Source of the DNA: Pseudomonadota bacterium
GTDB taxonomy: Bacteria > Pseudomonadota > Gammaproteobacteria > Pseudomonadales > Moraxellaceae
Assembly (NCBI GenBank): GCA_021804355.1
Contig: JAJZHP010000015.1
Span: 1-35,411 of the forward strand
Direction of reading: 5' to 3'
Length of the DNA stretch: 35,411 bases
Shown: positions 27,330 through 33,248 of the stretch, piece after piece
Layout: each line of letters begins with the position of its first letter
Position numbering within the stretch: the first letter of the stretch is position 1
Notes under the pieces: model-generated
Seen by the model: only the letters and a program-made list of their open reading frames with translations
What the model was told of the DNA's origin: nothing
Databases searched by the model: none
Made by a program: the position numbers and the translations under genes

Positions 27330-28121
27330 ATGCAGCCTACCCTTAATATGGCTCTACGAGCCGTACGCTCTGCCGGCGAGACCATTGCCCGCGCTTACGA
27401 ACGACGTGAAAGTTTCGAAGTTATCCAGAAAGGCGTACACGACTACGTTACCGAGATAGATCGCAAAGTAGAACAGATGATTTTTCAGCACTTGCGTCAG
27501 ACTTACCCGGAACATGGGTTCCTCGGCGAGGAAAGCGGCTCATCTAATACGAACAGTGAATTTCAGTGGATTCTCGATCCTCTCGATGGCACCACCAACT
27601 TCATTCATGGTTTTCCGCAATTTGCCATCAGCCTGGCCCTGAAAGTCAAAGGGGTAACTGAAGTCGCTATCGTTTATGACCCCTTACGGCGTGAAGAGTT
27701 CACCGCTGTTCGAGGCCGAGGAGCCAAGCTCAATAATCAGCGACTTCGCGTCAGTGCTGCAAAAGGGCTACAGGACTCGCTGATAGGCACAGGCTTCCCA
27801 TTCCGGCCTGAACAAATGTCGGGCATGGACCGCTACCTCACGAGCTTTAAAGAAATTGCCGCGCAGAGCGCTGGTTTACGTCGCGCTGGAGCTGCTGCCC
27901 TGGACTTGGCTTATGTAGCAGCGGGCAGACTGGACGGATTTTGGGAATCAGGTTTATCTATTTGGGATATGGCTGCTGGTGACCTGCTGATCCGTGAGGC
28001 GGGCGGTCTGGTCACCGACCATCAGGGAGGTTTGGGTTATTTGAATAATGGTCAAATCGTGGCTGGCCCTCCCAAGGTCGTCAAAGCATTGCTTACTATT
28101 CTGGCTTCAAGCGCTGCCTGA
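27330..28121 (+). CDS. suhB: Inositol monophosphatase family protein SuhB
   Basis: Mg-dependent phosphatase; in E. coli SuhB also joins the rRNA antitermination complex. Family motifs are GEESG, ILDPLDGTTNFIHGFPQFAISLAL and the C-terminal SIWDMAAGDLLIREAGG. 263 residues. The Shine-Dalgarno is weak (AGG, 11 bases before the ATG). The 125-base divergent gap to trmJ has no clear promoter beyond a TATCAT at 27289-27294. The 3' end overlaps the convergent diguanylate cyclase gene by 15 bases. Confidence 0.95.
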   Translation: MQPTLNMALRAVRSAGETIARAYERRESFEVIQKGVHDYVTEIDRKVEQMIFQHLRQTYPEHGFLGEESGSSNTNSEFQWILDPLDGTTNFIHGFPQFAISLALKVKGVTEVAIVYDPLRREEFTAVRGRGAKLNNQRLRVSAAKGLQDSLIGTGFPFRPEQMSGMDRYLTSFKEIAAQSAGLRRAGAAALDLAYVAAGRLDGFWESGLSIWDMAAGDLLIREAGGLVTDHQGGLGYLNNGQIVAGPPKVVKALLTILASSAA

Positions 28122-28125
28122 AGCC
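28103..28125. terminator. Hairpin spanning both stop codons of convergent suhB and the GGDEF gene
   Basis: GGCTTCA (28103-28109) and TGAAGCC (28119-28125) pair around a 9-base loop. The suhB TGA (28119-28121) and the opposing stop (28107-28109) both lie within the stem. It could act as a bidirectional terminator, though no T-run follows on either side. Confidence 0.4.
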
Positions 28126-29093
28126 TCTACCTCCGGGGTGTACAGGGTCACCAAATTACGCCCCCCTTCTTTGGATCGGTACAAGGACTTATCTGCACGT
28201 TCTATCCATGCCTTGGTGTCCTCTACGCCAAGAACAACGGGCGCCACACCCAAGCTAATGGTGTAACGAATTTCAACACCTTCGTGCAGTACCGTTTTCT
28301 TCTCAATATCTGCACGCAGACGCTCAGCAAATATCATGGCTCCTTCTGCATCTGCACCCACGAGTATGGCGGTAAACTCTTCTCCGCCATAGCGACCTCC
28401 TATATCCGTCTCTCGCAACTGCTGCCGCAATGCTGAAGCGGTCACCCGAATGACTTCATCACCTGCTTGATGACCATAGGTATCATTGACACGTTTAAAG
28501 TGATCAATATCAAACATAACCAAGGTGGCTTGCAAACTCTGGTTACGCTGCCAGCGTTTAAACTCTCGAACCAGACATTCTTCCCAATAACCCCGGTTGT
28601 AAAGCTGCGTCAAACGATCTGTCCGGCTTAGCCGTTCCAGTTCCTGATTCGCCGTCATGAGCGCCTTGCGACTAACCGCCACATCGGTAACGTCATAGAC
28701 CATCACACCCATATGTTTGACTTCCCCGTTCACTGAAGTCAGGGGAATCATGCTGACATTCTGGTACATAAAATCTGAACGTCCCGTAATGGGACGATAA
28801 TTGGAGAAGCGAAATATGTAAGGCCGTTGCTCCCAATTCGTATAGACCTGCGTTTTCAACAAAAAGACCGAGCGAGTTTTTTGTCTAAACCAGCCTTCTT
28901 GTACATCGGGGAAAACTTCGAATAAGGACCTGCCCTGGACAGATCGAGCTTGTTTGCCGCTGTGATTTTCCATAAAGGAATTCCACAGACATACGTGATA
29001 ATTTTCATCTAGCACCAGCAAACCAACATCGAGGGTTTGCAACAAACCCATCATCCAATGGAACTCTTGAAGGTCTATGCTGCTATGGTTCAT
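28107..29093 (-). CDS. PAS-GGDEF diguanylate cyclase
   Basis: Predicted to make cyclic di-GMP from two GTP. An N-terminal PAS domain spans about 15-140 (GLLQTLDVGLLVLDENYHVCLWNSFMENHSG). A short coiled linker follows, then the GGDEF domain (about 155-315). Metal and base contacts are in MFDIDHFKRVNDTYGHQAGD. The active site is GGEEF (236-240), with an intact inhibitory RxxD (RETD, 227-230) five residues before, so product feedback is expected. There is no signal peptide or membrane segment. The ATG overlaps the stop of the upstream response regulator (ATGA), so they are coupled; the regulator may control this enzyme. Confidence 0.92.
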   Translation of the reverse strand: MNHSSIDLQEFHWMMGLLQTLDVGLLVLDENYHVCLWNSFMENHSGKQARSVQGRSLFEVFPDVQEGWFRQKTRSVFLLKTQVYTNWEQRPYIFRFSNYRPITGRSDFMYQNVSMIPLTSVNGEVKHMGVMVYDVTDVAVSRKALMTANQELERLSRTDRLTQLYNRGYWEECLVREFKRWQRNQSLQATLVMFDIDHFKRVNDTYGHQAGDEVIRVTASALRQQLRETDIGGRYGGEEFTAILVGADAEGAMIFAERLRADIEKKTVLHEGVEIRYTISLGVAPVVLGVEDTKAWIERADKSLYRSKEGGRNLVTLYTPEVEASGSA

Positions 29094-30100
29094 GCAACCT
29101 CCACCAGATAACCAGCCTTACGCTGCAGCACAGGCAAAGACTCCTCCGTAAACAATAAAAGTAAATCACACCGGATATTATGACCTTCAATCACATAACT
29201 GATTTCTATGGCCAGCGTACGCTGCCATCGACTGGCGTTATGTTTAAACAAATCGGCAAAATCAAGATGACGCCCCAAAATTACCGGATGACTGCTACTA
29301 AAGGCCACATCCAGCTGCTCTGACAACCCTTTAGCGAAGGCTCCAATCAGAATACTGGCAACATCCATGACCATTTCAGCTTCAAGCGTTGGCGTCAACT
29401 CTTCCTGATAGCCCAGCAAATCAGCAATTTCGCGGTAGGACGAATCATGCACAATCAACAAGCCCTCGCCGCGTATACCTTCCCCGATCAAACCCTGACA
29501 AACAGCCGAAAACGTATCTTGTCGGGCGGCTAAGGCCAGAGCCATTTGTAGTTCGCTGACCTCCAGAACATTAACCTTGGGAATAGGCAACTCGACAAAA
29601 ACTTGCAGCAACTCAGCCAGCAAGGCTGCAGCGCGTCCCATGGCTACGTTGGCTACCTCCCGCAAAGCATCAAAGCCCTGCGGCGTTGTTGCCTTGGTGT
29701 CAATGGTTAAGGGCGGTGTCCACTCGCCACGCAAGCTAAATAACCCAAACTGCTCCTGAATCTGATCAAGCCGCTCCTTGCTTACTGGCTTTTTAATAAA
29801 GTCATAAGCTCCGAGTTTTCGGGTACGATCAACGGCTTCCGCCTGTATGTCTCCTGAAACAACAACCACGATGACAGGAAGATCGCAGCGCTGAATTTCC
29901 TCCAGAGTTTCATAGCCATCTTTGACCGGCATATTGAGGTCAAGAAACATAACATCGACGCCTCCAGTCTGGATTTTCTCCAGAGCCTCAGCACCATTGC
30001 CAGCAAAATCCACCACAATATCCCAAGTTTCAGGCAGTGCTTTCGCCAACTGCTTGCGTGCCATGGCAGAATCATCGCATATTAAAACATGACAGCTCAT
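29090..30100 (-). CDS. Response regulator: receiver domain plus CheC/CheX-like domain
   Basis: The receiver domain (about 1-120) has the acidic pair D9/D10, phospho-acceptor D54 in VMFLDLNMPVKDGY, S82 and K104 (FIKKP). The C-terminal half (about 140-330) resembles CheC/CheX/FliY phosphatases. The first motif DxxxExxNx22P is intact (D144, E148, N151, P174); the second copy is degenerate (EMVMDVASILIG, no Asn in place). It may dephosphorylate its own or another receiver. The frame is open to 30166, but GAGGTG five bases before the ATG at 30100 and the fit to receiver starts decide for 30100 (336 residues). No DNA-binding domain. It is followed by a diguanylate cyclase overlapping by four bases. 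Confidence 0.85.
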   Translation of the reverse strand: MSCHVLICDDSAMARKQLAKALPETWDIVVDFAGNGAEALEKIQTGGVDVMFLDLNMPVKDGYETLEEIQRCDLPVIVVVVSGDIQAEAVDRTRKLGAYDFIKKPVSKERLDQIQEQFGLFSLRGEWTPPLTIDTKATTPQGFDALREVANVAMGRAAALLAELLQVFVELPIPKVNVLEVSELQMALALAARQDTFSAVCQGLIGEGIRGEGLLIVHDSSYREIADLLGYQEELTPTLEAEMVMDVASILIGAFAKGLSEQLDVAFSSSHPVILGRHLDFADLFKHNASRWQRTLAIEISYVIEGHNIRCDLLLLFTEESLPVLQRKAGYLVEVA

Positions 30101-30169
30101 GCCCACCTCAATTGCATAGATCTTTGCATTCCCTCCAGTTAAGACGAAGAAGCCCGTTATCTCCACCTT

Positions 30170-32278
30170 TTAACCAGATTTATGCACATACCATCCAATC
30201 AGCACTAAAACGATCAACAAGACCACCCCAGCATAGATTATCCAGGGCTGGCGTTTTTCAGCATAGGGGTCAATCAATGAACGCTCCGCACCTGGAGGCA
30301 GCTGTGCCAATTGAGTCAGCGAGGTTCCAAAAGCGATATTGATGCGTGCCCGGGTATTGATAGCCCAGCCATTGCCCTCAAGTATGGGCCCCAGATTACG
30401 GCTATGCAATTTGAACCACGCCATGATCATGCTAGGCCCCGATATGAGCGCTAATACCCCAAAAAATGCCATCGGCATCTGCCAGATATGCAAGGCAAGA
30501 AAACCTGTCAAGACCGAGGCCAAAGCCGTTCCAATTGCTCCTAAAGCCAGCCCTATCGCGGCAAAAATACCTGCAAACCGGCCTACGTCAAAAGCAGCAG
30601 CGGGAGCAGCAGCCGTAGTAGGCAAAGATTTGGTTGCGTTTTCCAGACTTTTCGTAGCGGACTGCTCAACCGATTGCTCGCGAGCTCGCGCAATTTTTTG
30701 TATCTGATCGGAAAACATACGGCCTAATCGTCGATAGGGTGTCCAGAAGGCTTCCCTTACACTGATCGGATTTTCAATGAGACGAATGACTTTGGCATCC
30801 CAATCTCTTCCTTGTCGATCATAAAAAATAGCATGTCTACCCACCATGATATCTCCGGCATCTCCGGCGGTCACAGCAGCTACTATCGTTTTATCAGTCT
30901 CGCCTGCCCGGCTGATTTGGCAGTAAATCAAATAGGTATGACTCAACCCCGCCAAATTTGCATGCTGCGCCAAATTCTGGACCTCAACACATAAATCACA
31001 GCTGCGGCTATCGAGATAAAGCCTACCCGCCTGGAATACCGCCAGATCACGACGGCCATAAAAATCACGCAGGGACACAAAGTTATACAGGAAGCTGACC
31101 AGATAACGTTGATAATGCAGCAGCTTGTCGACTTCCATGATGGCATCGGCCGCAGCTTGAACAGCAAGGTCTGCGGCTAATAATTCCTGCAGACGTGACT
31201 CAGCGCCCGATTGCAGCCAACCATCCAACTGTTCTTTGGGCAAATCAAGAAACAGCTGTGGCTTTTGTGACAGCCAGTCAGCATGACGCTGCATAATATT
31301 TCTAACATAGATCCAATCAGAAAAATTGACTTGTCTGCGACTCCCCAACAGGGGCAACAATACCTGCTGCTCCAGATCATACATAGCTTGTTGCCAGGCT
31401 GGATTAAGACCCTGATCCAGTGATAGCTCTGACTTGGCATGTACATGAGCTAACGGCAAGTCTGCAGCTTCTGTCACATCTACAGATAGTGTTTCTGTAG
31501 CCAAGTGGGTAAAGCTTGCTTCCTGGCTATTTAACAGAACGGCTGCTCGCGTATCAAAAGCTGCTAATCGACACCGAGCAAAATAATCATCAACCTTGTC
31601 TCGCACCCTGTCAAAGATCGACCAGGCAAGATCCATGTCAACGCCTTCGTGTAATGGCTTGGTCGTCCACCAAGCACTGGTGTCTCGCACACGATCAAAA
31701 AATACCTGCAGGATCTCTGCCTGGATGCCTGGTTCACCGCTGCGATCTTCTACCTGTCCCTGAAGAGCCATCATCAGGCGAATCAGCTGCTCCAGTTCTG
31801 CATCGTTTACCATATTGACCGGAACAATCCCATCACCGTTAGCATGATCCGGAGGAAACAGGCGAGCGCGATCCAGCGTGTGTTCGAGCCGCAAATTTAC
31901 TTCGTCTGCCAACCCCAGCATGTGACGCAGCTTCTCTGCCGACTCCAATAACCGTGCCCCGGTGGGATGATCAGAATTTAGCGCACTTAAAGGCAGCTGA
32001 TCTGTATTAAATAACAAATCAGGATCTCGCAAAGCCTGGACGACAAAGGAGGCTGCAGCCAATACTTCCGGCACTCGTATGCGTCCATCATGATCGCTAT
32101 CTAAGTAGGCCAGGGTGATGGCATCAAAACACAATCCACGGGTCGGACAGGACAACGTTGCCCACAGCTTGGGATCAAGCTCACTCAACTGACGCAAATC
32201 CTCACCACAATCAATGCGAACTTGATCAAAACCACCTGAACGATGAAAGCGCCAAACATGGGTATCGGGAATGGGCAT
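30170..32278 (-). CDS. EF-hand protein with C-terminal membrane segments, function unknown
   Basis: A 702-residue protein. A perfect 12-residue EF-hand loop is at 60-71 (DSDHDGRIRVPE: D1, D3, D5, G6, I8, E12), suggesting Ca2+ binding. A second, degenerate loop (DHANGDGIVPV) lies further on. A large soluble region runs to about 560. Three hydrophobic segments follow (FAGIFAAIGLALGAIGTALA onward, MPMAFFGVLALISGPSMIMAW, WIIYAGVVLLIVLVLIGWYV), the last ending five residues before the C-terminus. The frame is open 23 codons further upstream. I chose the ATG at 32278, one base after the hydrolase stop, with GCAGGA upstream. I recognise no assigned function, though similar EF-hand membrane proteins occur in proteobacteria. 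A 69-base gap leads to the response regulator. Confidence 0.75.
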   Translation of the reverse strand: MPIPDTHVWRFHRSGGFDQVRIDCGEDLRQLSELDPKLWATLSCPTRGLCFDAITLAYLDSDHDGRIRVPEVLAAASFVVQALRDPDLLFNTDQLPLSALNSDHPTGARLLESAEKLRHMLGLADEVNLRLEHTLDRARLFPPDHANGDGIVPVNMVNDAELEQLIRLMMALQGQVEDRSGEPGIQAEILQVFFDRVRDTSAWWTTKPLHEGVDMDLAWSIFDRVRDKVDDYFARCRLAAFDTRAAVLLNSQEASFTHLATETLSVDVTEAADLPLAHVHAKSELSLDQGLNPAWQQAMYDLEQQVLLPLLGSRRQVNFSDWIYVRNIMQRHADWLSQKPQLFLDLPKEQLDGWLQSGAESRLQELLAADLAVQAAADAIMEVDKLLHYQRYLVSFLYNFVSLRDFYGRRDLAVFQAGRLYLDSRSCDLCVEVQNLAQHANLAGLSHTYLIYCQISRAGETDKTIVAAVTAGDAGDIMVGRHAIFYDRQGRDWDAKVIRLIENPISVREAFWTPYRRLGRMFSDQIQKIARAREQSVEQSATKSLENATKSLPTTAAAPAAAFDVGRFAGIFAAIGLALGAIGTALASVLTGFLALHIWQMPMAFFGVLALISGPSMIMAWFKLHSRNLGPILEGNGWAINTRARINIAFGTSLTQLAQLPPGAERSLIDPYAEKRQPWIIYAGVVLLIVLVLIGWYVHKSG

Positions 32279-32279
32279 A

Positions 32280-33248
32280 TCAGATTCCTGCATGAAAGTG
32301 TGACAAAAAGAAACGTAATCGATGCTCCCAGGGCTGGCGCAACTCATTGGACTCGTTTACCAATTGATGACTAGCCTGTTGCAATAAAAGAATTTGCGCT
32401 CGTGGAAACTGATGGCGAATGTAGGTGAGGTTATATCTCCAGTCAACCGTTTGATCCTTCTCCCCCTGAATGACCTGAATAGGGAGTGAGGAAACAGGCA
32501 TCTTTCTCATACGTCGCTCCCAGGCCAGCATGGCACCCACCCACTCCATGCATAAACTTCTGGGCTGAAGAGGATCTTTATGCAAGACAAAATCAAGAAA
32601 TTCAGTATCCGAGCTGTTCTGTCGAAACTTTCGTGGTGTACGTTGCAACCAACGACCCAGACCATAATATGAACTACGAGCCAGCTGGAATGCAGCTGGC
32701 CGAACTAAGGGAGCCCACAAAAATAAGCCTTGAAACCCTGATGCTACCCCTCGCTCCATGACCTGTTGCAGCAGGATACCTCCCCCTGTGCTTTGCCCCA
32801 GACCCAGCCAGGGCTGAGGAAGTTGCGAACCCAATAGCTGTTGTAATCCCATCAAAATTTTCTGATAACTGGAAAAATCATCAATACAGGCCGGCTGACC
32901 ACTCGATAGGCCATGTCCTGGCAAATCAACTGCAATCACTTCATAGCCTGCTACCAACACAATCTCTAACACATGACGATAGAGGGCGACATGATCAAAC
33001 AAGCCATGCCACAACCACACGGTACCCCTGATCTCCTCAGTTAAAGGCCGCATACGATAAAGAGCCAACTGCCACGGGGAGAATGACCAACGATATAAAG
33101 AGCACCGACCTGACAGACGATGCAAACCGTAATACTCGAAAAACCGAGTCTGTTCTGCCGTTAATTCAGTTTCAGATGCCGCAGAGGCCCAAGACACTAG
33201 CTGCTTTTTTAACTCATCAGGTTGAAATGACATACCTGCATGACTCAT
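32280..33248 (-). CDS. Alpha/beta hydrolase (monoacylglycerol-lipase / S33-like)
   Basis: A 322-residue serine hydrolase. The oxyanion region is VWLWHGLFDH, the core VIAVDLPGHGLSSG, and the nucleophile elbow GQSTGG (S153). The likely acid is D265 in QGEKDQTVDW and the His is H294 in LQQASHQLVNES. Features resemble Hydrolase_4 (lysophospholipase/monoglyceride lipase) proteins. No signal peptide. The start at 33248 lacks a clear Shine-Dalgarno; the Met at 33233 is an alternative. First gene of the minus-strand operon with the EF-hand protein, response regulator and cyclase. The substrate is unknown. Confidence 0.85.
   Translation of the reverse strand: MSHAGMSFQPDELKKQLVSWASAASETELTAEQTRFFEYYGLHRLSGRCSLYRWSFSPWQLALYRMRPLTEEIRGTVWLWHGLFDHVALYRHVLEIVLVAGYEVIAVDLPGHGLSSGQPACIDDFSSYQKILMGLQQLLGSQLPQPWLGLGQSTGGGILLQQVMERGVASGFQGLFLWAPLVRPAAFQLARSSYYGLGRWLQRTPRKFRQNSSDTEFLDFVLHKDPLQPRSLCMEWVGAMLAWERRMRKMPVSSLPIQVIQGEKDQTVDWRYNLTYIRHQFPRAQILLLQQASHQLVNESNELRQPWEHRLRFFLSHFHAGI

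Follow-up and report, generated by a model that had tools for sequence, protein, structure and literature searches.

The analyzed window, that is, the whole 35,411-nucleotide stretch examined here (contig C167), comes from a 2.6 Mb draft genome of the Moraxellaceae. It contains a block of four genes on the minus strand that encode a putative lipase, a membrane protein with an EF-hand, a response regulator with a CheC-type domain, and a PAS-GGDEF diguanylate cyclase (Table 1). In a preliminary description, these genes were proposed to form one signaling operon that controls cyclic di-GMP (c-di-GMP) in response to calcium or the envelope state. All four open reading frames (ORFs) were confirmed. 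Two of the three junctions were described as tight, and this was confirmed for the lipase/membrane protein junction with a gap of 1 base pair (bp) and the regulator/cyclase junction with a 4-bp overlap (ATGA); at the middle one, the membrane protein and regulator genes are 69 bp apart. To judge from the sequence, the block probably constitutes a single transcription unit. For the membrane protein, the longest ORF starts at 32347; the best start is the ATG at 32278, because the homologs begin there. Similarly, the ATG at 30100 is the best start of the regulator, as its homologs begin with MSxxVLICDDS, and the GTG at 30166 is an upstream extension across the conserved spacer.

Table 1. Genes and spacer of the four-gene block (window coordinates).
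Feature	Position	Strand	Evidence
BipL-like alpha/beta hydrolase, putative lipase, 322 amino acids	32280..33248	-	NF052543, monoglyceride lipases in PDB, catalytic triad
EF-hand membrane protein, 702 amino acids	30170..32278	-	invariant EF-hand ligands and NGDG motif, hydropathy, AlphaFold2 model
Membrane protein-regulator intergenic spacer carrying the conserved element CTTAACTG, followed by GAGG in the window	30101..30169	-	spacer comparison
Response regulator: receiver domain (REC, ~1-118) and CheC/CheX-type domain (~140-336)	29090..30100	-	Response_reg, CheC structures, invariant residues, predicted structure
PAS-GGDEF diguanylate cyclase, 328 amino acids	28107..29093	-	GGDEF, PAS_4, GGEEF and RxxD

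The phyletic distribution divides the block into two parts, module A (lipase and EF-hand protein) and module B (receiver-CheC regulator and PAS-GGDEF protein). All eight sampled genomes of genera g1, g2, and g93 have the genes in the order lipase, EF-hand protein, regulator, cyclase; one of these genomes has the block distributed over two contigs, and in a further one the contig stops within the cyclase gene. Module A is found alone in 11 genomes of g94, g100, and g101, in none of which the regulator was matched at E≤1e-30. The regulator is matched in 57 of the 146 genomes of the order at E≤1e-20, a count that includes receiver-only matches, and in 34 of the 369 genomes of the class at E≤1e-50. 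A subset of these matches was examined as 54 locus records (6 four-gene loci, 20 from the order, and 28 from the class, with one genome represented twice). A PAS-containing gene directly follows the regulator gene in all 54 records, and module B occurs without module A in 20/20 further records from the order and 28/28 from the class. Based on these sequence comparisons, the block is best described as two older modules that were joined, not as one ancient circuit. Hence, a conserved four-gene order is borne out in three genera, but the idea of one four-gene circuit fails as a general statement, since module A is found alone in 11 genomes and module B across the Gammaproteobacteria; the co-occurrence of the four genes is tight in one clade and was not observed outside it.

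In both the EF-hand protein tree (100/100) and the regulator tree (100/99), the four-gene loci group together in a single supported clade. The neighborhood of the block varies, as the upstream flanking genes are not common to the three genera and the downstream convergent gene suhB is common to g1 and g93 only. In the window, the 3' ends of suhB (27330-28121, plus strand) and the cyclase gene overlap by 15 bases (28107-28121). Across the block-bearing genera, identity decreases to about 55% for the EF-hand protein and to 43-51% for the lipase. The retention of the block among changing neighbors, while lipase identity falls this low, points to selection on the four-gene arrangement.

The regulator begins with a typical receiver domain (Response_reg, 5.1e-24), in which the response-regulator residues D9, D10, D54, S82, and K104 are invariant in 16 homologs; the fold search of the predicted structure gave receiver matches with Z of about 19. 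This search listed only receiver domains and no CheC, and thus the CheC membership of the second domain rests on sequence. The regulator matched solved CheC structures with E-values of 9e-06 and 1.7e-04, and its homologs matched Pfam CheX (11/16) and CheC (5/16), the match of the window protein being weaker, below gathering. Residues E148, N151, P172, and P174 are invariant in the same 16 homologs, the first two forming the catalytic Glu-x2-Asn motif, and P174 lies at the distance from N151 that is typical of the CheC signature (Asn-x22-Pro). As the second motif of this type is degenerate, a single active site is predicted. Proteins of the CheC/CheX/FliY class drive hydrolysis through an asparagine and an acidic residue that they insert into the site of the receiver (PMC3035606). 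As the CheC-type catalytic residues are invariant and the domain is fused to the receiver, the simplest reading would be a self-dephosphorylating regulator. The regulator also occurs split into adjacent CheY-like and CheC-like genes followed by a PAS-GGDEF gene (L095, L110, L111, L178, and L179).

Alternatively, the CheC-like domain may be a docking or output domain rather than a phosphatase, so that phosphorylation would alter PAS binding and E148 and N151 would have a structural role. The degeneration of the second motif is compatible with such a function, whereas the invariance of E148 and N151 in 16 diverse homologs argues for catalysis, as do the loci with the CheC part encoded separately beside a CheY-like gene, an arrangement that fits an enzyme acting on the receiver. 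We consider a pure docking function possible, although on balance unlikely.

The last gene of the block encodes a diguanylate cyclase by its domain content (GGDEF, 2.6e-41; PAS_4, 8.8e-07), with an intact GGEEF active site and an intact RxxD inhibitory site (RETD, five residues upstream of GGEEF). The genome of the window contains 31 GGDEF matches, and thus the cyclase of the block is one of many. The PAS half is conserved also among the cyclase homologs that lack GGDEF. In eight loci (L097-L100, L103, L154, L158, and L166) the partner of the regulator is a PAS-only protein of about 143-161 amino acids. The regulator tree requires at least six changes between GGDEF and PAS-only partners, and a single PAS-only clade was rejected (approximately unbiased test, p-AU 1.9e-107). 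The GGDEF half thus appears to have been lost at least six separate times with PAS kept, which suggests that the obligate partner of the regulator is PAS rather than the cyclase activity. As PAS persists in the absence of GGDEF, it is most likely PAS on which the regulator acts. Genome G062 has two regulator loci (L102 and L103), one with a PAS-GGDEF and one with a PAS-only partner, and may allow a within-genome comparison.

The preliminary description envisaged a regulator with a phosphatase-like output gating a cyclase with intact active and inhibitory sites, in a block devoid of a kinase. Both cyclase sites are indeed intact, the phosphatase-like output agrees with the presence of a CheC-type domain with the invariant E148/N151 motif, and the four-gene block encodes no histidine kinase. 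The gating of the cyclase has to be restated, as the partner kept throughout is PAS, and the GGDEF half has repeatedly been lost. The locus tables, inspected by eye alone, showed no recurrent kinase-like neighbor; about 44 HATPase domains score above the cut-off in the genome of the window.

The EF-hand membrane protein matched no Pfam or NCBIfam family, and Pfam EF-hand was matched weakly by 5 of its 17 relatives. Nonetheless, the liganding residues of the EF-hand loop D60-x-D62-x-D64-G-R-I-R-x-x-E71 (residues 60-71) are invariant in 17 homologs, as is the NGDG motif at residues 147-150. In the AlphaFold2 model (mean predicted local distance difference test score 76.9), helices 53-59 and 69-82 flank the loop, forming the canonical helix-loop-helix, so that the loop is a candidate calcium-binding site. 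Searches of PDB by sequence and by fold gave nothing usable: the best fold matches (Z 5.3, helical toxin stalks) are at chance level for helical proteins. A weak match to the major facilitator superfamily (0.019) was dismissed as reflecting transmembrane composition. By hydropathy, the N-terminal ~550 residues are predicted to be cytoplasmic, followed by two transmembrane helices (~565-625) and a C-terminal one (~678-701), and no N-terminal hydrophobic segment was detected. Given this arrangement and the positive charges, the EF-hand most likely faces the cytoplasm.

This membrane protein is found in 20 of the 61 genomes of the family sample, and in 14 of 369 gammaproteobacterial and 11 of 299 phylum-sample genomes, both of the latter counts including the family of the window; outside this family it is an orphan. 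The closest named relative, from a "Pseudomonadales bacterium" metagenome-assembled genome, is 84% identical over a part of the protein. The twentieth match in the family (G195:C364:3-365, in records L042 and L091) corresponds to a fragment of 120 residues at the end of a contig, and no lipase match accompanies it. It comes from a member of g4, a genus whose other sampled members lack the EF-hand protein, and may be contamination or a partial copy. The EF-hand membrane proteins constitute a conserved family without a Pfam or NCBIfam name and without a matching solved structure.

The existence of a canonical, invariant EF-hand loop invites the explanation that this protein senses calcium or the envelope state and, together with the lipase, feeds the regulator and cyclase in one pathway. 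The conservation of the four-gene order in three genera agrees with such a pathway, and a calcium-activated diguanylate cyclase, CasA, is known (PMC8576532). However, in most genomes either half of the block occurs without the other, the halves are not connected by any common domain or by a fusion, and the predicted cytoplasmic location of the EF-hand weakens the idea of envelope calcium as the signal. We regard a common calcium or envelope pathway as improbable. Calcium or envelope control of the block is not supported, and the earlier interpretation as a whole is supported in part.

The lipase is most similar to phospholipase BipL (NCBIfam NF052543), scoring 275 bits against a curated cut-off of 450, and hence is a relative but not an equivalog; none of the 61 family genomes contains a match above this cut-off. 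Its domain match is Hydrolase_4/Abhydrolase, and it also matches monoglyceride lipases from PDB (E 2.8e-08 to 1e-07). Residues S153 (in GQSTG), D265, and H294 are invariant in 14 homologs and correspond to the GxSxG-Asp-His set of lipase-type alpha/beta hydrolases; no obvious export signal was found in the protein. Taken by itself, the lipase occurs in most genera of the family, mostly as one strong match. In Pseudomonas aeruginosa, BipL affects biofilm matrix production, for which its catalytic serine is required (PMC10597414), and by this analogy the combined block may plausibly be connected with biofilms.

Combining these observations, we lean, with moderate confidence, towards the following scenario. 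The two modules were joined once, in the common ancestor of the three genera of the family, producing the four-gene block in which module B is a phospho-switch and module A is a membrane-lipid module. A kinase encoded elsewhere would phosphorylate D54 of the receiver, and the CheC-type domain, via E148 and N151, would hydrolyze the phosphoryl group in cis or between protomers, thus resetting the signal. The PAS domain encoded by the next gene may read the state of the regulator by touching it directly, as suggested by the invariable adjacency of the two genes and by the retention of PAS where GGDEF has been lost. In this lineage, PAS would relay the state of the regulator to the GGDEF domain, which is intact here, and so set the local c-di-GMP level. 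Module A would contribute the lipase and a membrane-anchored protein with a predicted cytoplasmic EF-hand. The joining would then result in co-expression of lipid remodeling and the c-di-GMP switch; direct biochemical coupling between the modules is hypothetical.

Several points weigh against this scenario. The lipase, as noted, falls under the BipL equivalog cut-off, and the CheC-type domain, whose activity is predicted from homology, could simply bind, as in FliM. The rates of evolution are much lower for the regulator and cyclase than for the lipase and EF-hand protein: the path length between the window and L074 is 0.24 for the regulator vs. 1.08 for the EF-hand protein. Therefore, no single common constraint acts on both halves. 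Finally, the 69-bp gap has a conserved element of its own. Comparison of the spacers from the window, L014, L073, L074, and L076-L079 revealed an 8-base element, CTTAACTG, common to 8/8 spacers of the three genera, while most of the spacer has diverged; no such element was obtained in 2000 shuffles. Among 179 loci, CTTAACTGNAGG occurs only in those holding the spacer between the EF-hand protein and regulator genes. Since the gap carries this element, the regulator pair may be transcribed from a promoter of its own. Sites found in the sigma-70 and terminator scans were no more frequent than in shuffled sequences. The reading of the element as a small leader peptide was rejected, because it has no open frame in L077.

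These points could be explained by chance, if two unrelated operons became adjacent in one lineage and have since been transmitted vertically without a functional link. The single origin of the join, the element in the gap, and the very different rates of the halves are all consistent with this explanation, and the first and the last of these would leave room for simple inheritance. Nevertheless, the block has been kept while its neighbors changed over three genera and its EF-hand protein and lipase diverged, and we consider chance adjacency unlikely.

In the open-licence literature searched, no description was found of the four-gene block or of the module composed of a REC-CheC regulator and a PAS(-GGDEF) protein, and we view the block as an undescribed variant assembled from known signaling parts. 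A receiver that carries its own phosphatase-type domain and is always encoded beside a PAS protein would constitute a compact timed switch, controlling c-di-GMP in a distinct manner. From the recurrent loss of GGDEF and the persistence of PAS, one would predict that the regulator acts through PAS, c-di-GMP being one possible output. A broader generalization is that REC-CheC and PAS make up a phospho-switch that is general in Gammaproteobacteria and undescribed, a self-dephosphorylating receiver with an obligate PAS partner and an optional cyclase output; in three genera, this switch would be wired to the lipase and to the EF-hand protein, a member of a new family, to yield a lipid- or calcium-linked c-di-GMP circuit. 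Taken as a whole, this is doubtful.

Comparison with known systems shows both the familiar and the unusual features of the block. The best family match of the lipase is BipL (PA14_04030) of P. aeruginosa, a protein that restrains the biofilm matrix (PMC10597414) and with which it shares the conserved Ser-Asp-His; in contrast to BipL, it scores 275 vs. the 450-bit equivalog cut-off, is paired with an EF-hand membrane protein, and has a predicted activity. In CasA, the calcium-responsive diguanylate cyclase of Vibrio fischeri, calcium is sensed by the protein's own N-terminal sensory domain (PMC8576532). The window block resembles CasA in that a calcium input may lie close to a c-di-GMP output, whereas its EF-hand resides on a separate, predicted cytoplasmic protein with a hypothetical link to the cyclase. 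Like the CheY-P phosphatases CheC, CheX, and FliY, the regulator has an intact Glu-x2-Asn motif (one copy), a homologous fold region, and a predicted action on a receiver, but here the CheC-type domain is fused to or encoded beside the receiver, and the regulator is paired with a PAS(-GGDEF) protein rather than with a flagellar or chemotaxis set. Finally, in the REC-GGDEF proteins PleD and WspR, as is predicted for the window system, a receiver controls a GGDEF enzyme with an RxxD feedback site. Here, however, the receiver and GGDEF belong to separate proteins, predicted to be joined through PAS, the phosphatase-type domain sits on the receiver, and the GGDEF domain is dispensable.
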